64,000 nt of DNA from Methylohalobius crimeensis 10Ki (GTDB lineage: Bacteria; Pseudomonadota; Gammaproteobacteria; Methylococcales; Methylothermaceae): contig NZ_ATXB01000001.1 of the NCBI RefSeq assembly GCF_000421465.1, positions 310,001 to 374,000 of the forward strand, written 5' to 3'. Shown piece by piece: positions 33,982 to 60,305 of the stretch (positions within the stretch are counted from its first letter, which is position 1; each line of letters opens with the position of its first letter). The position numbers and the translations under genes are program-made. The notes beneath the pieces were generated by a model, which did no database searches, was not told where the DNA came from, and saw nothing but the letters and a program-made list of their open reading frames with translations.

Positions 33982-34725
33982 ATGAGCACTACAACGTCTG
34001 CAGTTCGGTCACACGCCGAAGCAGTGCAGGTGTCCAGGACGGTTGACTACCTGGGCCTGTTTATCCTGTTCTTCGTATTGACCGGTTCCTACCACATTCA
34101 CGGCATGCTGACCATGGGCGACTGGGACTTCTGGTCCGACTGGAAAGACCGTCGTCTGTGGGTGACCGTCTACCCGATCGTCATGATCACCTTCCCGGCC
34201 GCGGTGCAAGCGGTGATTTGGGAACGTCTGCGCCTGCCTTTCGGGGCCACCATTTCCATTCTGGGCATTCTGCTGGGTGAATGGATCAACCGCTACTTCA
34301 ACTTCTGGGGATGGACCTACTTCCCGATCAACTTCGTCTTCCCGACGGCGGCGGTCCACATGGCCATCTTCCTGGACGTGGTCCTGATGCTGTCCAGCAG
34401 CTTCCTGTTCACGGCCGTGGTTGGCGGCTTGGGCTGGGGTCTGTTGATGTACCCGGGCAACTGGCCGGTGATCGCACCGCTGCACGTGCCTGTGGAATAC
34501 AACGGCATGCTGATGTCCGTGGCCGACATCCAAGGCTACCATTACGTCCGTACGGGTACGCCCGAATACATCCGGATGGTTGAAAAAGGCACCCTGCGTA
34601 CCTTCGGTAAAGACGTGGCGCCGGTATCCGCGTTCTTCTCCGGCTTCATGTCCATCCTGATCTACTTCATGTGGCACTTTGTGGGCCGTTGGTTCGGCAC
34701 TGTGAAATTCGTCAAGAAGACCTGA
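33982..34725 (+). CDS. pmoA: Particulate methane monooxygenase subunit A
   Basis: A 247-residue membrane subunit, the standard phylogenetic marker of methanotrophs. It has recognisable PmoA segments: 'GDWDFWSDWKDRRLWVTVYP', 'NRYFNFWGWTYFPINFVFP' and 'PLHVPVEYNGMLMSVADIQG'. Length equals that of gammaproteobacterial (type I) PmoA. A GGAGGT ribosome-binding site lies before the ATG. It encodes pMMO rather than ammonia monooxygenase by context with methylotrophy genes. Confidence 0.97.
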   Translation: MSTTTSAVRSHAEAVQVSRTVDYLGLFILFFVLTGSYHIHGMLTMGDWDFWSDWKDRRLWVTVYPIVMITFPAAVQAVIWERLRLPFGATISILGILLGEWINRYFNFWGWTYFPINFVFPTAAVHMAIFLDVVLMLSSSFLFTAVVGGLGWGLLMYPGNWPVIAPLHVPVEYNGMLMSVADIQGYHYVRTGTPEYIRMVEKGTLRTFGKDVAPVSAFFSGFMSILIYFMWHFVGRWFGTVKFVKKT

Positions 34726-42887: not shown

Positions 42888-43997
42888 ATGTTGAACTGGG
42901 ACGACCCGCTGGAAAGCATCAAAAAACAACCGGCCCCACAGCCGAAGGAACATTTCACCATGCCGGCGGTGGCCGCCGACCGGGCGGCGGAGGAATCCTC
43001 GGCCCGGGCGGATTCGCAAAACTACGACGGCGAAAAACGGCTGGTGGGCGGCAGCGACCTGACCGCCAACATCGCCCCGATCAAATACAAATGGGCCTGG
43101 GACGCTTACATGGCCTCCCAACGCAACTTCTGGATGCCCACCGAGATCGGCATGGGCGAAGACCTGATGACGCTCAAAAAGCTCAACGAAAACGAGCGCC
43201 ACACCTTCTTCACCACCTTCGCCACCCTCACCACCGCCGACGCGCTCCACCAGCGCAACCTGGCCCTGGCCGTGTACGAACGCATCAGCGCGCCCGAGGT
43301 GGGCATGGCGGTCATCGCCCAGATGCACCAGGAAACCATCCACTCCATGAGCTACCAGCACGTCATCGAGGCGCTCAACTTCGACGAGGACGAGATCTAC
43401 CTGCTGTATCAGAAAGTCCCCCCCATCCGCGCCAAGTTCGAATACAGCAACGAAAAGACCAAAGCGCTGCAGGGGCAGGGCGGAAGCCTGAAGGATTACG
43501 TCAGGGGCCTGTTCTTCTACTACATGATCTTCGAGGGGGTCTGGTTCATGGCCAACTTCTGCCCCATCTTCTCCATGCAGCGCCGGCGGCTCATGGTCCG
43601 CACCGGCGAACAGCTCCAATACATCGCCCGCGACGAATCCGGCCACGTCGCCTTCGGCCGCGCCCTGATCTCCGCTCTGTGGAAGGAAAACCCGGAAACC
43701 CGCCTGGAGGAAGCCGAAGCCCACGGCCTCATGCGCGAAGCGATGGAATTGGAAGAAGCCTACGCCCAATACACCGTCAAGCCCATGCTCGGCTACGACC
43801 TGGAACTCCACCGCCGCCACGTCCGCTCCCTGGCCAACCGCCGTATGCTGGACCTGGGTTTCTCGCCGCTCTATTCGGACCAAGAAGCGGAAAGCCTGCC
43901 GTGGTGGGAGGAGCAGGTCGCCGCCCGAAAGGAGAAGAATTTCTTCGAGACGCGGGTGACCGAATATCAGACTGGGGGGGCTTTGAGTTGGGAGTGA
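42888..43997 (+). CDS. nrdB: Class Ia ribonucleoside-diphosphate reductase, beta subunit
   Basis: A 369-residue diiron/tyrosyl-radical subunit. 'QETIHSMSY' supplies the iron ligands Glu and His and the radical Tyr with E. coli spacing (E115, H118, Y122). 'TTADALHQRNL' holds the first Asp; 'IFEGVWF' and 'ARDESGHVAFG' hold the later Glu, Glu and His. The start at 42888 has GAGAGGAGA upstream. The last 75 codons are nearly duplicated at 44627-44840. Confidence 0.95.
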   Translation: MLNWDDPLESIKKQPAPQPKEHFTMPAVAADRAAEESSARADSQNYDGEKRLVGGSDLTANIAPIKYKWAWDAYMASQRNFWMPTEIGMGEDLMTLKKLNENERHTFFTTFATLTTADALHQRNLALAVYERISAPEVGMAVIAQMHQETIHSMSYQHVIEALNFDEDEIYLLYQKVPPIRAKFEYSNEKTKALQGQGGSLKDYVRGLFFYYMIFEGVWFMANFCPIFSMQRRRLMVRTGEQLQYIARDESGHVAFGRALISALWKENPETRLEEAEAHGLMREAMELEEAYAQYTVKPMLGYDLELHRRHVRSLANRRMLDLGFSPLYSDQEAESLPWWEEQVAARKEKNFFETRVTEYQTGGALSWE

Positions 43998-44095
43998 AGG
44001 CGGATTGATGGGAAGAGTGGCGTTATTTGAATCGGCGGAGAACTATTCGAGCAATCGGATAACCTGACGAATATCGATCCATGTAGAGGTGGAAA

Positions 44096-44284
44096 ATGTC
44101 TACGATAGTCAGCAAAGAAGACGCCCATAAATTGATAGATCAGCTTCCCGCCAATGCAACGTGGGAAGACCTGATGCATGAAATCTACGTTCGAGAAGCG
44201 ATCGAGAAAGGGCTCGAAGATAGTAAGGGAGGAAACACAAAGGATGTTGTAGAAATCAGGAAGAAATATGGATTACCTGAATGA
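44096..44284 (+). CDS. Antitoxin of a ParE/RelE-type toxin-antitoxin pair
   Basis: A 62-residue acidic protein, 'MSTIVSKEDAHKLIDQLPAN', with a predicted helical body, of the small addiction-module antitoxin group. It overlaps the toxin start as ATGA, the usual coupling. The pair lies exactly between the complete nrdB and the duplicated nrdB 3' end. Confidence 0.75.
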   Translation: MSTIVSKEDAHKLIDQLPANATWEDLMHEIYVREAIEKGLEDSKGGNTKDVVEIRKKYGLPE

Positions 44285-44574
44285 AAGTTCATTGGACGGA
44301 AACAGCCGAAGCTCATTTGGATGCCATATATGCGTACATCGCCCAAAATTCGGAAACCTATGCGTTACGCACTGTGGATCGAATTACGAGACGATCGCAA
44401 CAAATTGGTGAATTTCCGTTGTCTGGTCGAAAAGTCTCGGAATATCAGCATGATCAAATTAGGGAGGTTTTCTCTGGTCCATACAGAATCATTTATCACA
44501 TAAAAGCAGACCAAGTTGATGTTATCGCTGTGATTCATGGAGCAATGAATGTGCTGGAAGGCGAAAAAGAATAG
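44281..44574 (+). CDS. ParE/RelE-superfamily toxin
   Basis: A 97-residue protein with the ParE pattern: 'WTETAEAHLDAIYAYIAQNS', 'FPLSGRKVSEYQHDQIREV' and 'YRIIYHIKADQVDVIAVIHG'. ParE toxins poison gyrase, RelE toxins cut mRNA; the sequence is nearer ParE. Overlaps the antitoxin gene by 4 bases. Confidence 0.82.
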   Translation: MKVHWTETAEAHLDAIYAYIAQNSETYALRTVDRITRRSQQIGEFPLSGRKVSEYQHDQIREVFSGPYRIIYHIKADQVDVIAVIHGAMNVLEGEKE

Positions 44575-44626
44575 GAAAGGCCGAATAAAAGCCTCAATTC
44601 GGACTGTCTTAGTTGGAATATTGCTC

Positions 44627-44840
44627 CACCGTCAAGCCCATGCTCGGCTACGACCTGGAACTCCACCGCCGCCACGTCCGCTCCCTGGCCAACTGCCGTA
44701 TGCTGGATCTGGGCTTCTCGCCGCTCTATTCGGACAACGAAGCGGAAAGCCTGCCGTGGTGGGAGGAGCAAGTCGCCGCCCGGAAGGAGAAGAATTTCTT
44801 CGAGACTCGGGTGACCGAGTATCAGACCGGGGGGCGTTGA
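44627..44840 (+). pseudogene. Partial duplicate of the nrdB 3' end
   Basis: Matches nrdB from 43772 to about 44000 with roughly ten substitutions in 200 bases, seven of them silent third-position changes. It has no start region and ends 'QTGGR' because of an indel in the G-run. The similarity continues a short way past the stop (to about 44862). The silent bias shows the two copies diverged as working genes before being brought together. Confidence 0.9.
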
Positions 44841-44955
44841 GTTGGGAGTGAGGTTGGATTGGTGGGGGTGTGATGTTATGTGAATAGATGGAATCTGCCT
44901 ATTGTCCTAATTAGAGATTTCTGTCTATTGAACTGTTAGCCAAAAAAGTATAGGT
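44841..44955. other. Left boundary of the integron cassette array
   Basis: Short AT-rich non-coding segment. GTTAGCC at 44935-44941 resembles the R' core site (GTTRRRY) just before the first cassette, but no complementary left arm is present. It could be a decayed attC or an attI remnant. Confidence 0.3.
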
Positions 44956-46029
44956 ATGGAGATTCTGTTTTCACACGAGAGGTTGGGCGACTTTCTCCTT
45001 ATAGAGGAAATGCTGTTTAGTAACCGCCTACTGATTGACCCTTTGGATTCGAGATCAGACCATCCGTGCAGATTAGTTAACTACTCTCTGGAAACAGAAA
45101 GCGAATTTCGGTGTTTGCTTGATAGAAATGTCGTTTCATATCTAATTGAGCTAGCAAAAGGAAGAAAGGTAACAACGAACAAGGATGGAGAGTGTTTCAG
45201 GTTAACAGCAGCACTTCAGGCGTTTTTGAATGCGTCCGGCATCATGTCAGAACCGAGCATGGCTTACCATGAGTACATGGAATCGTCCGGTCTAGAGAAG
45301 GCGGATAAAGAGCTGTCTTTATTTAGGTCGGCAGACAATTTGAATGCAAACATATATTTGGACATTGCAATAGGGAAAAGATCATCAGTTCCTGATGCCG
45401 AATTAGTGCCATATGAGGCGGGAGAGCTAGTAAATGCAGAAATTCCTCCTAAGCTTCGTCATTTCGAGAATAATATTGTTATTGTCAAAAAAGCTTTATC
45501 TTTGAAATCCAAGGGAAATACGGATTACCAAGTCTTACTTGATCTAATGGATTGGATTTATGAGAATTACGTATTTTCAGCTCCAGCATTTCACTTTTTA
45601 TCAATTTACTTCAGCTCAAAGAGGATTTCACAGATGTTGAAGTCCCGCTCTATCACTGGAATACGTAATGCCACTTGGGATCTGTGTCTTATTCAGCAAA
45701 TGATCACGAACGTTAAAGATAGCGACAATACGAATGTTCGCTGGCTCTTGAGTACGTTCGATCAGGCTGTAAAAGAAACTACTGACTACGTGTTTCTAAG
45801 ATATGACGAATCAGTGGACGATTACTACTCAAGGCTGGAGACGTTATATTCCGAGATGTGGGGAAAGAAAAACAATTATGGAAACAATCTGCTGAATAAG
45901 TTGGTTGAATTCAACGATTCCGTCAACGATCCACAGAGAAACATCAATCGCCACAAGGGAAGCAGTGAGTATATATTATCTCTCAGAAAAGAGGTGGAGC
46001 GTGAGTTCCAGGCGTGTGAAATTGTCTAA
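44956..46029 (+). CDS. Cassette 1: hypothetical protein (357 aa)
   Basis: A 357-residue protein of AT-rich codon usage, 'MEILFSHERLGDFLLIEEML'. It seems soluble and mainly helical, with no signal peptide or membrane helix. No catalytic motif was recognised. The stop TAA (46027-46029) lies inside the left core of the first attC. Typical of uncharacterised cassette proteins. Confidence 0.7.
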   Translation: MEILFSHERLGDFLLIEEMLFSNRLLIDPLDSRSDHPCRLVNYSLETESEFRCLLDRNVVSYLIELAKGRKVTTNKDGECFRLTAALQAFLNASGIMSEPSMAYHEYMESSGLEKADKELSLFRSADNLNANIYLDIAIGKRSSVPDAELVPYEAGELVNAEIPPKLRHFENNIVIVKKALSLKSKGNTDYQVLLDLMDWIYENYVFSAPAFHFLSIYFSSKRISQMLKSRSITGIRNATWDLCLIQQMITNVKDSDNTNVRWLLSTFDQAVKETTDYVFLRYDESVDDYYSRLETLYSEMWGKKNNYGNNLLNKLVEFNDSVNDPQRNINRHKGSSEYILSLRKEVEREFQACEIV

Positions 46030-46085
46030 CAAAACCATTCACCGGACGTGCCAAAGGCGCGCGCCGGTGATGGTAAACGTTATAC
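46024..46085 (+). repeat. attC site 1
   Basis: Left core GTCTAAC (46024-46030) and right core GTTATAC (46079-46085). Arms ACCATTCACCGG and CCGGTGATGGT pair perfectly except for one extra T on the left, the extrahelical base. Confidence 0.85.
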
Positions 46086-46102
46086 AGAGTCAAGGAGCTC
46101 AG

Positions 46103-46600
46103 ATGCATCGGGATCATGACCCAGAATTTGTAGAGTGGGTTGCTGCGGAGATGGCGCAGTTTCGAGAGCATGTTACAGAGGCCGCTAATGCTTCTGGAGA
46201 TCAGCGCTTGGCTGTACTGTTAACGCATCTGTATACCGAGCATCTGCTCGAGCGCTACCTGAAAGCCAAGCTCCCGAAAGGGGAGCGCCTTCTCAAGGAT
46301 GAGTTCCTGATGTATCAAAAGAAGCTCGACTTCGCGGCAGCGCTTGGTGAACTTGATAATCAGCTCATTGACGGTCTTGGTAAGCTGAATAAGCTACGCA
46401 ATAACTGTGCGCATAAGTTCAAATACTCCATGGATTCGGAAGAGTTGGAAAAACTTGGCAAGACGCTAGGAAAGGAATATTCAGAATTCAAGGAAAAATA
46501 TCCAAACGATGAGCATGGATGGCTCGGGGCCACGCTTCCAAAAATCGCGGAGCGTCTGGCCACCGTGGTAGCGAGCGCTGAGATTGGCAAGCCTGTATAA
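46103..46600 (+). CDS. Cassette 2: HEPN-like protein
   Basis: A 165-residue helical protein from the ATG at 46103 with AAGGAG upstream. The motif Rx4H (Arg99 to His104, 'KLRNNCAHKF') is the signature of HEPN domains, which often are ribonucleases in toxin-antitoxin or anti-phage systems. 'HLYTEHLLERYLKAKLPKGE' is typical of the family N-terminal helices. No partner antitoxin is evident in the cassette. Confidence 0.72.
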   Translation: MHRDHDPEFVEWVAAEMAQFREHVTEAANASGDQRLAVLLTHLYTEHLLERYLKAKLPKGERLLKDEFLMYQKKLDFAAALGELDNQLIDGLGKLNKLRNNCAHKFKYSMDSEELEKLGKTLGKEYSEFKEKYPNDEHGWLGATLPKIAERLATVVASAEIGKPV

Positions 46601-46654
46601 CCAAGCCATGCAGCCGACGCTCGTGCCTCGCGCGCCTGATGGCTGTCGTTATGC
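46595..46654 (+). repeat. attC site 2
   Basis: Left core GTATAAC (46595-46601), right core GTTATGC (46648-46654). Left arm AGCCATGCAG pairs with CTGATGGCT of the right arm apart from one bulged G. Confidence 0.82.
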
Positions 46655-46669
46655 AATGAGAATCACCCT

Positions 46670-47392
46670 ATGAAGAAATCTCATATTTTGGAGGAGATTC
46701 GTCGAACGGCGGAGCAAAATGGAGGGGTCCCGCTGGGTAGATCCCGGTTCCTTGCGGAAACAGGAATCCGCGAAAGTGACTGGATTGGAAAGCATTGGTT
46801 GCGATGGAGTGAAGCTGTCCGCGAGGCTGGATTTGAGCCGAACACCAAGCAGCAGCCCCTTGATGAAAATGAAGTCTTGGAAAAACTTGCTAATTTCGTG
46901 CGGGAGCTTGGTCATTATCCTGTATCGGCTGAACTTAGGCTGAAAGGCCGCAATGATAGCGAATTCCCGAGCCACAATGTTTTTGCTCGTTTTGGCCGGA
47001 AATCCGAAGTGGCCTCAGCCCTTTTGACATGGTGTGAGGGGAATCCGGGCTGGGAAGATGTTGAGGCGATTTGCGCTCCATTGGCGGAACGACCTGAAGA
47101 AGAATCTGGTGCCGATGAAATTGAGGAAGAGCCGGAGTATGGTTTTGTATACCTATTGAAGTCCGGTAAGTATTTCAAGATTGGACGCAGCAACTCACCG
47201 GGGCGTCGTATATATGAGCTTTCCATCCAGTTGCCGGAGCGAGTCAAGACGGTTCATACCATAAAAACTGACGACCCTGCTGGCATTGAGCAGTACTGGC
47301 ACCGTAGGTTCGCTGACCGTCGTAAGAATGGTGAGTGGTTTGAGCTTAGAAGAGAAGACGTATCGGCTTTTAGGCGCCGAAAGTTTATGTGA
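46670..47392 (+). CDS. Cassette 3: GIY-YIG (T5orf172/Mug113-like) protein with HNH-associated repeats
   Basis: A 240-residue protein. The N-terminal part has two repeats like the homing-endonuclease-associated HNH_repeat ('RESDWIGKHWLRWSEAVREA'). The C-terminal 85 residues form a GIY-YIG-type nuclease of the T5orf172 group: 'YGFVYLLKSGKYFKIGRS', 'HTIKTDDPAGIEQYWHRRF' and 'GEWFELRREDV'. Probably a DNA-acting nuclease or a regulator; the function in a cassette is unknown. Confidence 0.8.
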   Translation: MKKSHILEEIRRTAEQNGGVPLGRSRFLAETGIRESDWIGKHWLRWSEAVREAGFEPNTKQQPLDENEVLEKLANFVRELGHYPVSAELRLKGRNDSEFPSHNVFARFGRKSEVASALLTWCEGNPGWEDVEAICAPLAERPEEESGADEIEEEPEYGFVYLLKSGKYFKIGRSNSPGRRIYELSIQLPERVKTVHTIKTDDPAGIEQYWHRRFADRRKNGEWFELRREDVSAFRRRKFM

Positions 47393-47397
47393 ATGAT

Positions 47398-47472
47398 GCA
47401 TAACCAGTGCGTCAACGCGGATTGCTTTTTCCGCTGGCGCTCCAAAAGCAACCGGTTACGCAAGCGTTAAAC
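47398..47472 (+). repeat. attC site 3
   Basis: Left core GCATAAC (47398-47404), right core GTTAAAC (47466-47472, full match to GTTRRRY). Left arm TGCGTCAAC pairs with GTTACGCA leaving one bulged C. Confidence 0.87.
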
Positions 47473-47494
47473 GTCACGAACCAAGGAGTAAATT

Positions 47495-47996
47495 TTGAGT
47501 ATTGATTTATGGATTAGTATTGCTCTAGCTATTCCTTTAGCTATCGTTGCGAATCTTTTTACACCCAAGCTTCAAAAGTGGCTAGATTCGCGCCTGGAGC
47601 GTAGTAAAAAAGCAAAAATTGAGAAAAAGGAAGCTGCGAGACAGTTGCAGCTTGGAGAGCTCCAAAAGGAGCTGTTAGAGGTATCTAAACTCCATTCTGA
47701 CAAAGCCGATTTGAATCAGCTATTCCTTGTATCGCTAATCAAAGTTGCGATGTATGGTGCAATTGGAACTATTTACGGAGCCATCTTCCCTTTGATGGGG
47801 GAATTAACAAGTTGGGGGGGGGATTGGTGGGGTCGTTGGAAGAACTGGAGCGCAAATAACCGCTCTAGCAGTTTCGATGCTCATTTTCATGACTTGTGCT
47901 CAAACAATGAGAATGCATAAGAAAGTCAGAGATTTCGAAGAGTATGAGAAGAATACTAAATCACTTATTTCTGAGCTTGAAGGTAAAAACGTTTAA
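47495..47996 (+). pseudogene. Cassette 4: membrane protein with a frameshift at a nine-G run
   Basis: The TTG-started frame runs to 47920. After 'GELTSWGG' it leaves a sensible reading and ends in polar sequence. Losing one G from the G9 run at 47814-47822 gives 'GGIGGVVGRTGAQITALA' and then the hydrophobic 'VSMLIFMTCAQTMRM', ending 'ISELEGKNV' with a stop at 47994-47996 inside the attC left core. The N-terminal half has a helix, a coiled coil (about residues 35-75) and a second helix. Either phase variation, real decay or a sequencing error explains it. Confidence 0.68.
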
Positions 47997-48038
47997 CAAA
48001 GCATTGCAGCGGACAAGCCGCTGAATGCGGCGTTAGTG
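47991..48038 (+). repeat. attC site 4 (short)
   Basis: Left core GTTTAAC (47991-47997), right core GTTAGTG (48032-48038, imperfect). Left arm GCATTGCAGCGG pairs with CCGCTGAATGC apart from one bulged G. At 48 bp it is shorter than usual. Confidence 0.75.
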
Positions 48039-48053
48039 TACAAGGAGGCATAA

Positions 48054-48587
48054 TTGAAAATTGATGATTTGGTACGTAGATCTGAAGAGCTAATTCAGCT
48101 TGGGTTAAAAGCTAAGCAAACCAATAAAGGCAGAAATCAATCGATTTGGGTTGAGTGCGAAATTTTCTATACATTTAGAGCCTCTTCACTTTCCTTCTTA
48201 TCGAATATATTCGGCGCTCAGCATTGCTATTATACTGAATTCTCCAAAACTGTTGGTGCTCCCCACCTAGACAAAACGGAGTCAGGTATAGGCATTATAA
48301 AAGCGGTAAAAAATGAATTGGAGGGTGGTTGGTTAACATCGGCAAAAGGGTTAATTTCGGCTGAAATATTCTCAGATTTTATTGAGATGGCCGACCATCT
48401 TTTATCTGAGAACTATAAAGATGCAGCAGCAGTAACACTAGGTAGCGTTCTTGAAGAGCATCTTAGAACCCTTGCTTCAGTAAACGGTATTGAAACAGAA
48501 TATGAGAAGGATGGAAAGTTACTTCCAAGAATATTCGGGGTCAGAGTAACATTTATGTTTCAACATTGCGATTTCGTGCGCTGGTAA
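48054..48587 (+). pseudogene. Cassette 5: HEPN-like/DUF protein, truncated by a palindromic repeat
   Basis: Begins with TTG at 48054 after AAGGAGG. Residues 1 to about 158 look natural ('DAAAVTLGSVLEEHLRTLA', 'GIETEYEKDGKLLPR'), like the first half of HEPN-type cassette proteins. At 48529 the frame enters a 93-bp inverted-repeat insert and stops at 48587. The expected C-terminal RNxxxH region is missing. A 33-codon unrelated tail ('YLKWRKALKEEWKQHPEW') follows the insert up to 48724 and belongs to no recognised gene. Confidence 0.65.
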
Positions 48588-48621
48588 TAGCGGCTAAACG
48601 TTACTCTGACCCCTAATATTC
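48529..48621. repeat. 93-bp palindromic repeat, GGGGTCAGAGT family
   Basis: Terminal 22-bp inverted arms at 48529-48550 and 48600-48621 match with one mismatch; the core is GGGGTCAGAGTAAC/GTTACTCTGACCCC. The first 34 bases recur almost exactly at 57186-57219. It resembles non-autonomous repeats mobilised by REP-associated tyrosine transposases. Confidence 0.7.
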
Positions 48622-48735
48622 AGGCCTACCTCAAATGGCGCAAGGCGCTCAAGGAAGAGTGGAAGCAGCATCCGGAATGGAAAACTCCACCATGGAAGGA
48701 AGCGATGCGGGAACTACCGAGATGAACGTACATAA

Positions 48736-48810
48736 ACCTAACGAGGCGCTCCACCTGACACAGGGGGGCCGTTAGCGCTCCATTGCCGCCGGTGAGCTTG
48801 GTCGTTAGGT
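48736..48810 (+). repeat. attC site 5
   Basis: Left core ACCTAAC (48736-48742) and right core GTTAGGT (48804-48810) are full matches and perfectly complementary. Left arm GCTCCACC pairs with GGTGAGC apart from one bulged C. Confidence 0.9.
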
Positions 48811-48850
48811 GTCGCTTGTTGCGTAGTGCGCAACGTGCTATTATCGGCGC

Positions 48851-49129
48851 ATGATCAAGTCGTTTCGGCACAAGGGGCTGGAGAAGTTCTATCAAACAGG
48901 TTCGGCCTCTGGAATACAGCCCCACCACGCCAAGCGCTTGAGAATGCAGCTTGTAGCTCTGGACACCGCAACGACGATTGAAGATATGGATATCCCCGGT
49001 TTCAAGCTGCATCGATTGAAAGGCCCAGGGAAAGGACGTTGGTCAATCTGGGTCAATGGTAACTGGCGCGTCACCTTCGAGTTTCGAGACGGTCACGCGC
49101 ATGCGCTCGACTACGAGGATTATCACTGA
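48851..49129 (+). CDS. higB: Cassette 6: HigB-type toxin
   Basis: A 92-residue RelE-superfamily toxin: 'MIKSFRHKGLEKFYQTGSAS' and 'KGRWSIWVNGNWRVTFEFRD' match the HigB (plasmid maintenance killer) pattern. HigB cleaves ribosome-bound mRNA. Toxin precedes antitoxin, the typical hig order, with TGATG overlap at 49127-49131. Confidence 0.92.
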   Translation: MIKSFRHKGLEKFYQTGSASGIQPHHAKRLRMQLVALDTATTIEDMDIPGFKLHRLKGPGKGRWSIWVNGNWRVTFEFRDGHAHALDYEDYH

Positions 49130-49422
49130 TGGCCATGCACAATCCGCCCCATCCCGGCGAGTTTATCCGGGAGGTATACATGGAACCCTTTGAAATCACT
49201 GGGCGGCAGCTTGCTGTCAAGCTTGGGGTTTCTCCGTCCACTCTTACCCGGGTTCTGAACGGGAAAAGTGGCATTAGCTCTGAAATGGCCCTGCGCCTTT
49301 CGAAGGCGCTCGGTCGCAGCCCCGAGAGCTGGCTAACTATGCAGGACAACTATGACCTGTGGAAGGCCCGGCAATCGGTCAATTTGGATGCCGTAGAAAA
49401 GGTTGAATTCCGCGCCGAATAA
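49129..49422 (+). CDS. higA: Cassette 6: HigA-type antitoxin
   Basis: A 97-residue helix-turn-helix protein, 'NPPHPGEFIREVYMEPFEIT', with the XRE fold 'GRQLAVKLGVSPSTLTRVLN'. It neutralises HigB and autoregulates the operon. The stop TAA lies inside the left core of attC 6. Toxin-antitoxin cassettes are common stabilisers of integron arrays. Confidence 0.92.
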   Translation: MAMHNPPHPGEFIREVYMEPFEITGRQLAVKLGVSPSTLTRVLNGKSGISSEMALRLSKALGRSPESWLTMQDNYDLWKARQSVNLDAVEKVEFRAE

Positions 49423-49491
49423 CCACTGCGTTAACTCGGACGCCCAACTGCGCTGCGCTTCGTTGGGCACCGGTTACGCGGATTGTTATGC
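49417..49491 (+). repeat. attC site 6
   Basis: Left core GAATAAC (49417-49423), right core GTTATGC (49485-49491). Left arm GCGTTAACTCGG pairs with CCGGTTACGC with one bulged T. It is the last attC; hsdM begins 50 bases later. Confidence 0.87.
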
Positions 49492-49540: not shown

Positions 49541-51712
49541 ATGACCACCAACACCACCAGCCTCATCAATTTCGTCTTCGATATTGCCAACAAGCTCCGC
49601 GGCCCCTACCGGCCGCCGCAGTACCGCAAGGTCATGCTACCCATGACAGTGCTACGCCGTCTGGATTGTGTGTTGGCCCCCACCAAGGAGCAGGTGCTGA
49701 AGGAGTACGACAAGCTGCAGGCCCGCGGTCTGGAAGGCAATGCCCTGCACGCTGGGCTTGCCAAGGCGGCTAGCAAGGGCCGCCAGCACCCGCTGTACAA
49801 CATCAGCCCCTACACCTTCGAGAGATTGCTGGCGGACCCCGAGAACATCGCCACCAACCTAACCAGCTACATCAACGGCTTTTCCGAGTCCGCGCGGGCG
49901 ATCTTCGAGGCCTTCGGCTTCGAGTCGGAGATCGAGAAGCTGGACAAGGCCAACCGGCTGTATCTGATCGTCAAGGAGTTTGCGGATCCGCGCATCGACC
50001 TGCACCCGGATCGGGTCAGCAACCACGACATGGGGTATGTGTTCGAGGAGCTGGTGCGCAAGTTCAACGAGCAGGCCAACGAGGAGGCCGGGGATCACTT
50101 CACCCCGCGCGAGGTGATCCGCCTGATGGCCCACCTGCTCTACACCGAAGACGAAGAGGTTTATACGCCCGGCATTGCCCGCACCATCTATGACCCGACC
50201 GCCGGCACCGGCGGCATGCTGTCGGTCTCCGAGGAGTACATCACCGAACAGAACCCCCAGGCGCACCTGGAGCTGTTCGGCCAGGAGTACAACGAAGAAT
50301 CCTGGGCCATCTGCCGCTCCGACCTGCTGATCAAGGACGAGCCGGTGGACAATATCGCCTTCGGTGACACCCTGGGCGACGGCGAGACCGGCGACGGCCA
50401 CTCGGACAAGACCTTCCATTACATGCTGGCCAACCCGCCCTTCGGCGTGGAGTGGAAGCCGCAGGAAGATTATGTGAAGAAAGAGCATAGGGAGCTGGGC
50501 TTCGATGGCCGCTTCGGCCCCGGCCTGCCGCGCATCAACGACGGCGCCACCCTGTTCCTGCTGCACATGCTCAGCAAGATGAAGCCCAGGCCCGAGCAGG
50601 GCGGCGAAGGCTCGAAGATCGCCATCGTCTTCAACGGCTCGCCCCTGTTCAACGGCGAGCCCGGCCCCAGCGAGAGCAACATCCGCCGCTGGATCATCGA
50701 AAATGACTGGCTGGATGCCATCATCGCCCTGCCGGACCAGCTCTTCTACAACACCGGCATCTACACCTACATCTGGCTGGTCACCAACCGCAAGCCGGCC
50801 GAGCGCAAGAGCAAGGTGCAGCTCATCGACGGCACCCGCCACTACCGCAAGATGAAAAAGAGCCTGGGCAACAAGCGCAACGAGCTGGGCGATAACCACA
50901 TCGAGGAGCTGACCCGCCTCTACGCCGGGTTCACCGACGGCGCCACCTGCCGGGTGGGCCTGAACGGCGAACAGACCGAACGGGTCTGCTCGAAGCTCTT
51001 CGACAACCGCGACTTCGGCTATCTGAAGGTCACCGTGGAACGCCCCCTGCGGCTCAACTTCCAGGCCAGCGCCGATCGCATCGAGCGCCTCTGGCAGGAG
51101 ACCGCCTTCATCAATCTCGCCAAGAGCAAAAAGCGCAAGGACCCGACCGAGGCAGAGGCCGAGATCAAGGCCGGCGAGGCCACCCAGCAGCGCATCATCG
51201 ACATCCTCCGGGGGCTGGGCGACCCGCTTTACACCGATCGCGCCGAGTTCGAACCGCGACTCAAGGCCGCCTTCAAGGACGCCGGTGAGAAACTGCCCGC
51301 GCCGATCAAGAAGGCCATCCTGGGTGCCCTGTCCGAGCGCGACGCCGAGGCCGCCATCTGCCGGGACGCCAAGGGCAACCCCGAGCCGGATACCGAGCTG
51401 CGCGATACCGAGATCGTCCCATTGCCCGCCGACATCCCGCTGCCGCTGCCCATCGGCTACGACAAGGACGCGGACAACAGCCAGCTGCTGGAGCTGGTCC
51501 AGGGCCACTGCGAAGACTACCTGGCCCGCGAGGTGCTGCCCTTCGTCGACGACGCCTGGATCGACCACGGCAAGACCAAGGTGGGCTACGAGATCCCCAT
51601 CAACCGCCATTTCTATGTCTACCAACCGCCCCGCCCGCTGGAGGAGATCGAGCAGGATATCCAGGCGCTGGAAGGCGAGATCCTGGAGATGCTGAGAAAG
51701 GTGACGGCATGA
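49541..51712 (+). CDS. hsdM: Type I restriction-modification system, DNA methyltransferase subunit
   Basis: A 723-residue N6-adenine methyltransferase. The SAM motif is 'DPTAGTGGM' near residue 217 and the catalytic motif IV 'NPPFG' near residue 298. The HsdM N-terminal helical domain ('FVFDIANKLRGPYRPPQYRK') is present. The C-terminal 200 residues extend beyond short HsdM forms. It overlaps the next gene by ATGA. The GC-rich codon usage differs sharply from the neighbouring cassettes. Confidence 0.95.
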   Translation: MTTNTTSLINFVFDIANKLRGPYRPPQYRKVMLPMTVLRRLDCVLAPTKEQVLKEYDKLQARGLEGNALHAGLAKAASKGRQHPLYNISPYTFERLLADPENIATNLTSYINGFSESARAIFEAFGFESEIEKLDKANRLYLIVKEFADPRIDLHPDRVSNHDMGYVFEELVRKFNEQANEEAGDHFTPREVIRLMAHLLYTEDEEVYTPGIARTIYDPTAGTGGMLSVSEEYITEQNPQAHLELFGQEYNEESWAICRSDLLIKDEPVDNIAFGDTLGDGETGDGHSDKTFHYMLANPPFGVEWKPQEDYVKKEHRELGFDGRFGPGLPRINDGATLFLLHMLSKMKPRPEQGGEGSKIAIVFNGSPLFNGEPGPSESNIRRWIIENDWLDAIIALPDQLFYNTGIYTYIWLVTNRKPAERKSKVQLIDGTRHYRKMKKSLGNKRNELGDNHIEELTRLYAGFTDGATCRVGLNGEQTERVCSKLFDNRDFGYLKVTVERPLRLNFQASADRIERLWQETAFINLAKSKKRKDPTEAEAEIKAGEATQQRIIDILRGLGDPLYTDRAEFEPRLKAAFKDAGEKLPAPIKKAILGALSERDAEAAICRDAKGNPEPDTELRDTEIVPLPADIPLPLPIGYDKDADNSQLLELVQGHCEDYLAREVLPFVDDAWIDHGKTKVGYEIPINRHFYVYQPPRPLEEIEQDIQALEGEILEMLRKVTA

Positions 51713-52713
51713 GCCATGGAGAACTGATCCTTTACCGCACCGAAGACGGCAAGGCGCAAATCCACCTGCGCGTGGAGGGGGAAACCGCCTGGCTGACCCA
51801 GGGGGAGATGGCCGAGCTGTTCGACACAACCAAGCAGAATGTCGGCATGCATATCCGTAACATCTTGAACGAAGGGGAATTATCCGACGCGGCAGTTGTA
51901 AAGAAATCCTTTACAACTGCCGCCGACGGCAAGCGCTACCGGGTGAATTGGTATGCCCTGCCCATGATCCTGGCCGTGGGCTACCGGGTACGCTCGCCCC
52001 GGGGCACCCAGTTCCGCCAGTGGGCCACCGCCCATCTGGAGGAGTACCTGGTCAAGGGCTTCGTCATGGACGACCAGCGCCTCAAGGAGCCCGGTGGCTG
52101 GGACTACTTCGACGAGCTGCTGGCCCGCATCCGCGACATCCGCGCCTCGGAGAAGCGCTTCTACCAGAAGGTGCGCGACCTCTTCGCCCTCTCTAGCGAC
52201 TACCGGCCCGACGACCGCGACGCCCAGACCTTCTTCGCCGAGGTGCAGAACAAGCTGCTCTACGCCGTCACAGGCCACACCGCCGCCGAGATCGTCGTTG
52301 AGCGCGCCGATGCCGATTCCCCCAACATGGCGCTGACCAGCTGGAAGGGCGCGCGGGTGCGCAAGCAGGATGTCACCATCGCCAAAAACTACCTCACCGC
52401 CGACGAGATCGACACCCTCAACCGCCTGGTGGTGATCTTCCTCGAACAGGCCGAGCTGCGCGCCAAAGAGCGCCAGGACCTGACCCTGGACTACTGGCGC
52501 CACAACGTGGACCGCCTGCTGGCATTCAACGAGCGGCCGGTTCTCGACGGCGCAGGCCGCATCAGCCGCGAGCGCATGGAACAGATCACCCACGAGCGCT
52601 ACGAGCACTTCGACGCCCGGCGGCGGCGGGATGAGGCGCTGGAGGCGGATGCCGAGGATTTGCGGGAGCTGGAGGCGTTGGAGGAGCGGATCAAGAAGGA
52701 GAAACCGCAATGA
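51709..52713 (+). CDS. rhuM: RhuM-family protein within the type I R-M operon
   Basis: A 334-residue protein of the virulence-RhuM family: 'WLTQGEMAELFDTTKQNVGM' and 'VVKKSFTTAADGKRYRVNWY' then 'FAEVQNKLLYAVTGHTAAEI'. The N-terminus is winged-helix-like. Biochemical role is unknown; it often lies between hsd genes. It overlaps both hsdM and hsdS by 4 bases, so all three are coupled. Confidence 0.88.
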   Translation: MSHGELILYRTEDGKAQIHLRVEGETAWLTQGEMAELFDTTKQNVGMHIRNILNEGELSDAAVVKKSFTTAADGKRYRVNWYALPMILAVGYRVRSPRGTQFRQWATAHLEEYLVKGFVMDDQRLKEPGGWDYFDELLARIRDIRASEKRFYQKVRDLFALSSDYRPDDRDAQTFFAEVQNKLLYAVTGHTAAEIVVERADADSPNMALTSWKGARVRKQDVTIAKNYLTADEIDTLNRLVVIFLEQAELRAKERQDLTLDYWRHNVDRLLAFNERPVLDGAGRISRERMEQITHERYEHFDARRRRDEALEADAEDLRELEALEERIKKEKPQ

Positions 52714-54041
52714 CCGTCAGTGAGAATGAACGGGTAATCGCTGACGAGCGGACACGCCACTGGAAAGAACGTAAGCTCAAGTTCGTATCGGGTGTGCGTA
52801 CAAGCAACGTCGATAAGCATGTTGTTGAAGGTGAGACCGCTGTGCGCCTGTGCAATTACACGGACGTTTACTACCACGAAAAAATAACGCCCGACATGCC
52901 ATTCATGCAGGGCTCGGCCACGGAAAGCGAAATTGAACGCTTCGGGCTTAAGAAAGGACAGGTGCTTCTGACCAAGGACAGCGAAAGCTGGGAAGATATC
53001 GCCGTCCCCGCCTATGTCGCCGACACGATGCCTGATGTGGTCTGTGGCTACCACTTGGCCATTATTGAACCTGATTCGGACGAGGTGGACGGGCGCTTCC
53101 TTTCATGGCTGGCCCAGTCCCCGGTATTGAATGACCAGTTCAAATTATCTGCAAAAGGGGTCACCCGGTTCGGGTTGTCTCAGCAGGCCTTGAAGAATGC
53201 CCTAATAGATGTTCCCCCACTCGAATATCAGCTAAAGGTGGCCGCCTTCCTCGACCGCAAGACCGCCGAGATCGACACCCTGATCGCCAAGAAGCGCCGC
53301 CTGCTCGACCGGCTGGCCGAAAAGCGCACCGCCCTGATCACCCGCGCCGTCACCAAGGGACTTAATCCCGATGCCCCCATGAAAGACAGCGGCATCGAGT
53401 GGCTTGGGGAGATCCCGGCGCATTGGAATGTCGTTCGGTTAAGACACGTTACCCAGAAGATTGAACAAGGTTGGTCCCCGCAGTGTGAAAACCGTCAAGC
53501 CAACATTGGAGAATGGGGTGTCCTCAAAGTGGGGTGCGTCAATGGCAACGTTTATAATGAGACCGAGAACAAAGCGCTTCCCATAGACTTGCCACCAAAG
53601 GAGCAGTACGAGGTTCAAGTGGACGATGTTTTGGTGAGTCGAGCAAACACCAAAGAGTTGCTTGGGAGCGCCACCTTGGTCAACAAGACACAGGGAAAGA
53701 TCCTGCTGTGTGACAAGCTTTATCGTTTGGAAACAAATTCATCCGTGCATAATGGGTTCCTGATAAGAGTGCTCCGTTCACGTGCTGCGCGTTTTCAATA
53801 CGAGCGTGATGCAACAGGAACGAGCGGCTCTATGCAGAACATCGGGCAAGACACATTGAAAGATTTAAGGTTCGCATGTCCACCGCTCGAAGAGCAGAAG
53901 GAGATTGAGACTCGGCTGATTGCCGCAATGGAGGAGTTTGGGCAACTTCAGGACCGAATCGAAAGCGCGGTAAGCCGCCTTGAAGAATACCGCTCCGCCC
54001 TGATCACCAACGCCGTCACCGGCCAGATCAAGGTGGCCTGA
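52710..54041 (+). CDS. hsdS: Type I restriction-modification system, specificity subunit
   Basis: A 443-residue HsdS with two target-recognition domains, each followed by a conserved helical spacer: 'PPLEYQLKVAAFLDRKTAEI' near residue 170 and 'CPPLEEQKEIETRLIAAMEE' near residue 390. 'GIEWLGEIPAHWNVVRLRHV' begins the second domain. The TRDs are distinct, so the target is bipartite; the sequence recognised cannot be read from the protein. Confidence 0.94.
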   Translation: MTVSENERVIADERTRHWKERKLKFVSGVRTSNVDKHVVEGETAVRLCNYTDVYYHEKITPDMPFMQGSATESEIERFGLKKGQVLLTKDSESWEDIAVPAYVADTMPDVVCGYHLAIIEPDSDEVDGRFLSWLAQSPVLNDQFKLSAKGVTRFGLSQQALKNALIDVPPLEYQLKVAAFLDRKTAEIDTLIAKKRRLLDRLAEKRTALITRAVTKGLNPDAPMKDSGIEWLGEIPAHWNVVRLRHVTQKIEQGWSPQCENRQANIGEWGVLKVGCVNGNVYNETENKALPIDLPPKEQYEVQVDDVLVSRANTKELLGSATLVNKTQGKILLCDKLYRLETNSSVHNGFLIRVLRSRAARFQYERDATGTSGSMQNIGQDTLKDLRFACPPLEEQKEIETRLIAAMEEFGQLQDRIESAVSRLEEYRSALITNAVTGQIKVA

Positions 54042-57819: not shown

Positions 57820-58462
57820 TGCACAATCGGGCAAGGACGGGTGTGTGCGACGTGAAGTCGCGTAAGTGATTGTTGTGCTTGGAATTAATCCCATGACACA
57901 ACCTACTGTTCCTCCAGTAGTAGCCAAGAGGCGCGGGCGGAAGGGGCAACCGTTCCGTCCGAAGCCGCCTCGACAATGTACCCCAATCCCGCAAGGGATG
58001 AAGCCGAACCCGCGAGGGCAAGGCGGAACTGCGAGCATCGCGCGGTGGGGGGCTAGGCTCGGAAGTAGGGCGAGCGTATGCGAACTGGTGATAAATCCCG
58101 TCACCTTAGACAAGCCAAAGATGCTGAACAGGCTTGAGCCAAAAGGCGAGAAGGCGGTCTTGGTGTTACACCCTCACCAAGCGGGGACAAATGCCTACCG
58201 GGAAAAAGCCAGCGCCTAACCTTCCGAAGTCACTTACGCGAAACACGGTAAGCCCGTATCTCCGCCCTTCGGGGCAGGCCGACCGTAAGGAAGGTTGTTG
58301 AAGATGCGGGTAAGGGAAGCCGAAAAAGCGAACGCCGTCCTGTAATGGGATGGATAGGGATTGAGGGGAAACCCGACATCATCCCACGCGAAAGCGGGCA
58401 GACTTCCGGCGGGTCTCTCCTTGCAAGAGAGTTTGCAGAGCCATTCACAGGAGGACAAGCAA

Positions 58463-60184
58463 ATGACGGTTGACATTGCAACTGGTGCGGCCTCCGGCTT
58501 CGAGATGGACTGGCACGGCATCGACTGGGCCAAGGCCCATCGGGAAGTCCGAAGGCTGCAAATGCGTATTGCAAAGGCGGTCCGGGAAGAACGCCGGGGC
58601 AAGGTGAAAGCCTTGCAATGGCTCCTGACCCACTCGTTCTCCGGCAAGGCCCTTGCCGTGAAACGGGTGACCGAAAACCAGGGCAAACGGACGCCGGGCG
58701 TGGACCGGGAAACCTGGAACACCCCGGCGGACAAAGCCAAAGCGGTATTGTCGCTCAAGAGAAGGGGCTACCGACCCCGACCCTTGAGGCGAGTGCTTAT
58801 CCCGAAAGCGAACGGGAAGAAGCGCCCACTGGGGATTCCGACCATGCGGGACCGGGCAATGCAGGCGATATACCTGCAAGCTTTGGAACCCATCGAAGAA
58901 ACCTTGGCGGACCCGAACTCGTACGGGTTTCGGCCCATGCGGGCGAGCCGAGATGCGGCGGAACAATGCTTTATAGCATTGGGAAAACGCCAATCGGCTC
59001 AATGGGTTCTGGACGCGGACATCGCCGGTTGCTTCGACAACATCGGCCACGACTGGATGGCCGCCAACATCCCCATGGACAAGGCGGTTCTACGGAAATG
59101 GCTGGATTCCGGCTTCGTCTGGAATCACCAATGGTTCCCAACCGAGGCGGGCACGCCGCAAGGCGGTATCCTCTCGCCGACGCTGGCGAACATGACTTTG
59201 GACGGGATGGAAAAGGAGTTGGAGCGGCATTTTGGAATAAAACGCCTCACCACAAATGGAAGTGTATATTCCAACCCCGCTAAAGTCTATCTGGTGCGAT
59301 ATTGTGACGATTTCGTCGTCACCGGCGCTTCGAAAGAGACGCTCGTAGAGGCGAAATCCGTGATCGAAGGTTTTCTAAAGGAAAGGGGGCTTTTCTTGTC
59401 TCCCGAGAAAACCAAGATCGTGCATATCGAGGAGGGCTTTGACTTTCTCGGATGGAACGTTCGCAAGTATGGGGGCAAATTGCTCATCAAACCTGCGAAA
59501 AAGAACGTCCAGGCGCTTCGGCGCAAAATCCGGGAATTCATCAAAGCCAACCGCCAGGCGAAGCAGGAAAATCTGATAGGACGCCTGAACCCGGTAATCC
59601 GGGGGTGGGCGAACTATCACCAAAACCAGGTGGCGAAAGAAACCTTCCAGAAGGTAGATTACGTCATCTGGAAACAGCTTTGGCGCTGGTGCTGCCGGAG
59701 GCATCCGAACAAACCCAAGAAATGGATCAAGGACCGGTATTTCCACCGGCAAGGAAACCGGAATTGGGTGTTCGGAGCCAAGGTGAAGGACAAAAACGGC
59801 GAGGAAAAGTTGATGAAACTGGTCAAAGCCAGTGACACGCCGATCCGCCGCCACGTCAAGATCAAGGGTGAAGCGAACCCCTACGACCCGAAATTTGAGG
59901 AATACTTCGAGAGAAGGCTCGACCTGAAAGCGAAGGACGACCTCAAGGGCTGGGGAAAACTGCTGAACCTTTGGCTTGCCCAGGAAGGAAGGTGTGCGGT
60001 CTGCGGTGAACCAATCACCAAGGAAACCGGATGGAACCGGCATCACATCCAACACAGATGCGATGGCGGCAGGGACATACAATCCAACCTGGTGCTCCTT
60101 CATCCGAACTGCCATCGGCAGTACCACAACCGGGTCGAAAGAGGACTGCCGGCTCCTGTCATAAGGGGCTTTGCAGAGGCTTGA
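58463..60184 (+). CDS. ltrA: Group II intron-encoded reverse transcriptase/maturase/HNH endonuclease
   Basis: A 573-residue protein. RT motifs include 'RPLGIPTMRDRAMQAIYLQA', 'NSYGFRPMRASRDAAEQCF' and the catalytic 'RYCDDFVV' (YxDD as YCDD). The maturase domain X is 'LNPVIRGWANYHQNQVAKET'. The HNH nuclease at the C-terminus has 'CAVCGEPI', 'GWNRHHIQHRCDGG' and 'LHPNCHRQYHN'. The ATG at 58463 has AGGAGGACAAG upstream; the open frame to 58361 is intron RNA. The stop overlaps domain V. Confidence 0.95.
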   Translation: MTVDIATGAASGFEMDWHGIDWAKAHREVRRLQMRIAKAVREERRGKVKALQWLLTHSFSGKALAVKRVTENQGKRTPGVDRETWNTPADKAKAVLSLKRRGYRPRPLRRVLIPKANGKKRPLGIPTMRDRAMQAIYLQALEPIEETLADPNSYGFRPMRASRDAAEQCFIALGKRQSAQWVLDADIAGCFDNIGHDWMAANIPMDKAVLRKWLDSGFVWNHQWFPTEAGTPQGGILSPTLANMTLDGMEKELERHFGIKRLTTNGSVYSNPAKVYLVRYCDDFVVTGASKETLVEAKSVIEGFLKERGLFLSPEKTKIVHIEEGFDFLGWNVRKYGGKLLIKPAKKNVQALRRKIREFIKANRQAKQENLIGRLNPVIRGWANYHQNQVAKETFQKVDYVIWKQLWRWCCRRHPNKPKKWIKDRYFHRQGNRNWVFGAKVKDKNGEEKLMKLVKASDTPIRRHVKIKGEANPYDPKFEEYFERRLDLKAKDDLKGWGKLLNLWLAQEGRCAVCGEPITKETGWNRHHIQHRCDGGRDIQSNLVLLHPNCHRQYHNRVERGLPAPVIRGFAEA

Positions 60185-60216
60185 GCCGTATGCGGGGAAA
60201 CCCGCACGTACGGTTC
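60183..60216 (+). ncRNA. Group II intron domain V
   Basis: A 34-nt hairpin starting GAGCCGTATGCG, GAAA tetraloop, ending CGTACGGTTC. It has the AGC catalytic triad and the 2-base bulge of domain V. Confidence 0.92.
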
Positions 60217-60262
60217 TTAGGGGGCGGGGAGCGCGGTAACGCCTCCCTGCTACCCGACTTAG

Positions 60263-60305
60263 CCCGCCCTCCTTACGCCACCTAATAAGCGGGCCCCGAA
60301 TATTA
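60263..60305. repeat. Hairpin and fragment of the GGGGTCAGAGT repeat after the intron
   Basis: GCCCGC (60263-60268) pairs with GCGGGC (60290-60295). CCCCGAATATT (60295-60305) is the complement of the AATATTCGGGG end of the repeat family. Confidence 0.5.

Follow-up and report, generated by a model that had tools for sequence, protein, structure and literature searches.

Integron integrases (IntI) bind the repeats of an attI site and insert gene cassettes at its G^TT triplet from single-stranded attC hairpins. An integron is usually described with one attI (e.g. PMC3607928). Outside class 1 integrons, attI sites are poorly described and are undetected by IntegronFinder (PMC9024848), so that arrays headed by an attI would be filed as plain clusters of attC sites lacking integron integrases (CALINs). 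Here we describe such an array in Methylohalobius crimeensis 10Ki, in a window of 64 kb that corresponds to C1:310001-374000 of the 3.51-Mb genome (five contigs); positions without a contig prefix are those of the window. The locus is a six-cassette array without an integrase gene of its own and with a duplicated attI at its head. A preliminary description of the window had already read it as an integron cassette array, and this part is borne out, but the attI copy at the head had been overlooked. Since the head is a copy of the attI of the second intI gene of the genome, the locus is an attI-headed satellite array rather than a plain CALIN.

With six attC sites in one orientation and no intI nearby, the array resembles the CALINs of PMC9024848 and falls within their definition (at least two attC sites, no intI nearby), but it differs from them by a recognisable attI head, which is a copy of one located beside an intI in the same genome. 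For an intI-less array that has an attI of its own, we found a single published precedent, the Shewanella prophage M16-3 (PMC9892861): there too, a complete integron shares its genome with an array lacking intI, and the same attI starts both. That case is one pair in one prophage, whereas the number of attI copies per genome here is two to five, with copies on different contigs and in several genera. The Delta-attI-type cassettes (PMC12901181) are another parallel, with an attI outside its usual place that is recombined by IntI; there, however, cassettes of mobile integrons have pieces of attI as their recombination sites, while here attI sites head separate arrays. Finally, the methanotroph Methylococcus Mc7 (PMC8527097) has one complete integron and a separate cluster of nine attC sites, but the sections of PMC8527097 at hand describe no attI copy, whereas the array in the window has one. 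In the open-access literature we found no report of attI copies dispersed over the genomes of a genus.

The attI copy spans 66 bp (44873-44938, forward strand). A BLAST comparison of the window with the integron showed that it is 88% identical (E = 1.2e-17) to C1:424211-424276, the stretch from the start codon of the long intI gene to the crossover, that is, the attI, and that identity stops at the G^TT (G at 44935). Position 44935 had been taken for the start of the array; there is no attC at this position, which is the crossover of the attI copy. The genome contains four attI copies: in the window, beside the long intI, at C1:435845-435905 (the 435k copy) and at C2:26430-26491. They align through GTTA (CTTA in the 435k copy) and diverge afterwards. 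The array therefore lacks a local intI but has an attI of its own at its head. The match bears directly on the possibility of an off-target (attG) insertion at an ordinary genomic G^TT, with an incidental likeness to attI. Insertion by IntI into non-classical genomic sites has been reported (Loot 2024, as cited in PMC12901181 and PMC12444791), but identity of this degree over the 66 bp left of the crossover is not expected of an ordinary site, and this explanation is extremely improbable. As an attG junction, position 44935 was ruled out by the attI match. The 435k and C2 copies share 512 bp at 92%. Behind the C2 copy come a gene scoring 23.0 bits against a cut-off of 23.1 for DUF4145 and then an attC; the left neighbour of this copy carries a Bro-N domain and other neighbours are terminase- and lysozyme-like by eye, which places this copy (L103, C2:22.8-30.0 kb) in a prophage-like region.

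The attC sites were searched for with a covariance model of 20 pairs. Its training set consisted of 26 attC sites (58-72 nt) in integrons of the same order but of other genera, with none from this genus (loci L065, L066, L069, L070, L071, L075, L080 and L084). Of five covariation measures computed on this set, three beat all 500 shuffles and the slid versions (paired cells, cells with changes on both sides, and covariation score), and the remaining two (pair count and pair types) were not above the shuffles. Run with filters off over both strands of the 64-kb window, the model matched six sites, with E values of 1.2e-9 to 3.2e-4; these are exactly the six that the preliminary description had proposed while naming four as sufficient support. 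The next match had an E value of 2, and no attC match lies 3' of the array within the window. The sites are attC 1 (46024-46085; 45.7 bits, E = 1.2e-9, supported by its fold), attC 2 (46595-46654; 39.9 bits), attC 3 (47398-47472; 28.6 bits), attC 4 (47991-48038; 29.5 bits), attC 5 (48736-48810; 42.3 bits) and attC 6, the final site of the array (49417-49491; 25.0 bits). All six lie on the forward strand in one orientation, as had been claimed, and each has a bottom strand that folds into a hairpin. A rule-based scan, superseded by the covariance model, had recovered four of the six, one with a wrong right end, together with other matches. With attC sites that carry conserved R''/R' cores and form bulged hairpins, a single orientation and genes that end at attC sites (cassettes 4 and 5 being broken), the locus has the properties of an integron array. 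Of those of a complete integron, it has the attI at the head, as judged by similarity, and lacks an intI adjoining it.

A search of the genome with TIGR02249 gave 14 matches, none of them in the window, where tblastn and blastn yielded no intI match either. The absence of an integrase, as stated in the preliminary description, is therefore true of the window and not of the genome, in which two matches are full and above the 265-bit cut-off: the canonical intI (C1:1209203-1210141, forward strand; 493 bits) and the long intI (C1:422803-423723, reverse strand; 410.8 bits), whose open frame encodes 471 aa, including about 150 extra N-terminal residues. The attC sites to the right of the long intI (C1:426282, 429696, 430746 and 435149) indicate that it heads a complete integron. 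The array of this integron is interrupted by frames that recur beside the canonical intI and resemble insertion sequences by eye.

The window array sits 63 kb to the left of the long intI, and it is probably the long IntI that works in trans on the window attI and on the other dispersed attI sites. Encoded at this distance, the protein would bind the repeats of the window attI, and cassettes would be inserted at its G^TT from single-stranded attC hairpins. The presence of four attI copies in one genome implies that one integrase may serve several landing sites. From these sequences we infer activity of the window attI and its use by the long rather than the canonical IntI. The canonical enzyme encoded at C1:1209 kb is itself full (493 bits), but the sequence upstream of its gene has no match to the window attI (only stray matches of E = 0.39 elsewhere), while the long intI adjoins a close copy; construction of the array by the canonical IntI is accordingly a very improbable alternative. 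Were several attI sites served by one integrase, each of them would be a separate first-cassette position, and cassette capture and expression would have to be counted differently. Some intI-less arrays would then also gain a concrete origin other than decay.

Copies of attI away from intI and loaded with cassettes recur beyond this genome, and the window array is part of this pattern. By eye, the attI sites of the five species with a long intI have in common, with variants, two elements ahead of ACTGTT, the palindrome TAGACrGAATCyGTCTA and the repeat TTCyGTCTA; in G008, palindrome and repeat are changed alike. This motif (a TAGACAGAATCTGTCTA-like palindrome and a TTCTGTCTA repeat ahead of ACTGTT) provides a direct handle for searches. 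Ten genomes of the genus contained 12 matches to the core attI pattern with at most one mismatch, ten of them exact, five at intI and seven elsewhere, whereas the reversed pattern, used as a control on the same genomes, had one match, and base composition predicts 0.02 exact and 0.9 one-mismatch matches. The matches were confined to the five genomes with a long intI, each of which had at least one extra copy; the other five had none. Six of the seven extra copies (those of the window, C2, G002, G003, G008 and G009, the last with E = 0.009) are followed by an attC in the right orientation within 1.2 kb, the seventh being the 435k copy, whereas the rough chance of an attC behind a site, derived from the attC density in this genome, is 0.26% per site. 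In the first-look attC scan of the genomes, 150 candidates were scored in each, so that its counts are lower bounds (it omits two of the window sites). Mean identity between attI sites was 90.5% within genomes (10 pairs, 71-98%) and 73.8% between species (56 pairs, 64-87%), and for six of the seven extra copies the left flanks (1.26 kb) had no mutual BLAST match at E = 1e-3. The copies thus originated within the individual lineages or are kept similar within them; the exception is the extra copy of G009.

Cassettes common to primary and extra arrays were also found. In G003, the extra attI is followed by a cassette that matches one of the main array over 273 bp at 100%, beginning at the crossover base. 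In G032, another genome of the order, whose IntI is of canonical length, the first cassettes at two extra attI sites match the main array from the crossover base (323 bp at 99.7% and 648 bp at 92.9%), and G032_d has one main-array match of 152 bp at 70%. In G009, the arrays have 487 bp and 237 bp in common at 93-94%, the first of these stretches starting 40 bp past the crossover. No sharing of at least 150 bp with the main array was observed for the C2 and 435k copies of this genome or for G002, G008, G042 and G056, and none was seen for G032_c.

Near-identical cassettes in the primary and extra arrays of two species favour use of the extra sites after duplication. This evidence is at odds with the idea that a complete second integron was duplicated at the window locus and later lost its intI, so that the attI and the cassettes would be a fossil remnant. 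Degradation of integrons has been proposed as the origin of CALINs (PMC9024848), two window cassettes are broken, and a short 5' piece of intI is kept at several extra attI sites (43 nt in G003, 47 in G002, 23 in G008 and 87 nt of open frame in G032_b). But the extra copy of G003 ends after 112 bp at 100% that include the 43 nt of intI, so that the copied unit itself seems to have been small, and the window attI copy has no intI match by tblastn or blastn. On balance, we regard a degraded integron as unlikely.

Outside the genus, three attI queries were run over nine other genomes of the order. Four of them had extra attI copies: two in G056, two in G042, one in G048, in which intI is broken, and four in G032, three of which matched over 18-22 nt. 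The queries gave no match in G024 and G027. Clusters of attC sites follow G032_b (six), G032_e (four) and G048_2 (four), one attC lies 3 kb from G056_b, and a BLAST search with known attC found sites after G032_c and G032_d. An attC immediately precedes G042_2a and a weak one (E = 0.06) follows it, the nearest attC to G042_2b is 3.9 kb on, and G056_c is near a contig end. Several candidates were dropped, namely an 18-nt match in G035 (chance-like, no attC), a 15-nt match on G056 C59 (E = 0.99) and opposite-strand self matches in G012 and G048.

Eleven further genomes with a long IntI were searched with a slightly wider core pattern. Seven of them contained 15 matches, eight beside the long intI and seven, in five genomes, without an intI in the fetched 1.5-kb flank; the reversed control had none. 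The four remaining genomes were unmatched even at their own attI, and the wider pattern is no test for them. Both loci with an additional attI inside the locus, out of 19 examined, belong to these four genomes (Thiohalocapsa L121 and Methylolobus aquaticus L131).

A number of observations weigh against use of dispersed attI sites by the long IntI in trans. In the window, the upstream palindrome of the attI is altered, the array has no cassette in common with the main array of the same genome (at least 150 bp), and cassettes 4 and 5 are broken, so that the array may be old. The core of the 435k copy is mutated, and no attC lies behind it as far as C1:450000. Elsewhere in the genus, the extra attI of G009 reaches only 71% identity with the primary attI of that genome and has partly lost the upstream repeat, and G006 has attC sites with neither a full intI nor the attI pattern. 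In the order, G053 and G012 have an intI and no extra attI by the three queries, and outside the order a clear attC within 1.5 kb was seen at only three of the seven intI-less sites, with a weak one at a fourth (E = 0.03). In the genome studied here, a cluster with four attC matches at C1:1254.8-1262.5 kb (L105) contains no copy of either attI and is an attC cluster without a recognised attI; clusters of this type could have arisen by off-target insertion.

A further possibility, which we put forward tentatively, is that the attI itself is mobile: IntI would copy it between G^TT triplets into new places in the genome, often together with a little of the 5' end of intI, and thereby seed arrays served by one integrase. 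If so, integrons with a long IntI would be multi-platform systems by design. The left ends of the extra attI copies were compared with the nearest G^TT. In 16 comparisons, eight were within 6 nt (the window, C2 and 435k copies, G003_2, G002_2, G042_2a, G042_2b and G056_c) and eight were further away, with null fractions of 0.02 to 1; for G048_2, the attI of G042 served as the reference. The location of left ends at G^TT is a lead rather than a result.

The long IntI has four relatives in the genus with 67-70% identity. Among the best 80 of 306 loci, matches spanning the N-terminal extension come from gamma-, zeta- and deltaproteobacteria, Nitrospirae, Scalindua and others. When solved chains were searched with a long-IntI profile, the best stretch covered positions 149-461 against IntI4 (2a3v), and no best stretch among the listed matches starts before position 140 of the profile; L124 had been left out of the long-IntI protein alignment (stop codon in the coordinates used). 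In the AlphaFold model of the long IntI of G008 (mean pLDDT 81.7, pTM 0.49), the extension forms four helices with lengths resembling those of the core-binding domain that follows, and we infer from this model that it may be a second DNA-binding domain. Integrases with about 150 extra N-terminal residues (L009:2798-4213, L110-L189) occur in many phyla, many of them with the common attI motif.

The genes of cassettes 1-5 are AT-rich, as the preliminary description had noted (39-50% GC versus 58% for the window), and all cassette genes are on the forward strand. Its statement that stop codons lie in the left cores is correct for three of the six cassettes (1, 2 and 6); in cassette 3 the stop is 5 nt ahead of the core, a frameshift breaks cassette 4, and an element interrupts cassette 5. 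Similarly, the contents are uncharacterised at curated cut-offs in cassettes 1, 2, 4 and 5, but cassette 3 has known domains and an ordinary HigBA module makes up cassette 6. The gene of cassette 1 (44956-46029) encodes a 357-aa protein for which, as for cassette 4, protein-family searches gave no function. Plasmid searches, which covered cassettes 1, 2 and 5, gave 11 matching records for it, seven of them Vibrio at 45-46% over 98-100%; the full-length homologues (45%) are on Vibrio conjugative plasmids. The 165-aa product of cassette 2 (46103-46600) has a weak HEPN similarity below the cut-off and no match in the plasmid search. Cassette 3 (46670-47392; 240 aa) encodes HNH_repeat plus MUG113/T5orf172, all three above the cut-off.

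The gene of cassette 4 (47495-47920) has its frameshift at a run of nine G (47814-47822). The gene of cassette 5 (48054-48587) has no Pfam match, and some of its plasmid relatives are annotated as DUF4145 or HEPN. A 93-bp element (48529-48621) with inverted ends of 27 nt cuts into the 3' end of this gene. These ends are common to a transposase-like element at C1:436.1-437.15 kb (L009 16091-17150), of which the 93-bp element is likely a non-autonomous derivative. Cassette 6 (48851-49422) consists of higB (48851-49129) and higA (49129-49422), and a homologous HigBA pair (58% and 48%) lies behind an attC in the G047 array, L069. The cassettes may plausibly have a role in defence, as they lie next to a type I restriction-modification locus.

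This locus forms the right flank of the array (49541-54041, forward strand) with hsdM, a PDC-S05-type gene and hsdS; the gene between hsdM and hsdS (51709-52713) is the PADLOC candidate defence gene PDC-S05. On the left, near the attI copy, sequence comparison revealed a duplicated 3' end of nrdB (44629-44851, forward strand). Within 43766-44866 the nrdB 3' end is doubled (94% over 80 bp), and between the two repeats lie a gene for a ParE-type toxin and, upstream of it, a small gene (44096-44574). A doubled nrdB tail occurs in G003 too, where it encloses different small genes.

The host had been called a methanotroph, which is well supported by two genes of the PF02461 family (AMO, pmoA/amoA) in the genome, one in the window (34003-34716) and a second with the same score at C1:2411268-2411981. 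At the Rfam gathering thresholds, only two tRNAs and a group II intron were found in the window. The intron (57825-60296) has a 99.6% copy at C1:1197.5-1200.0 kb, about 9 kb from the canonical intI.

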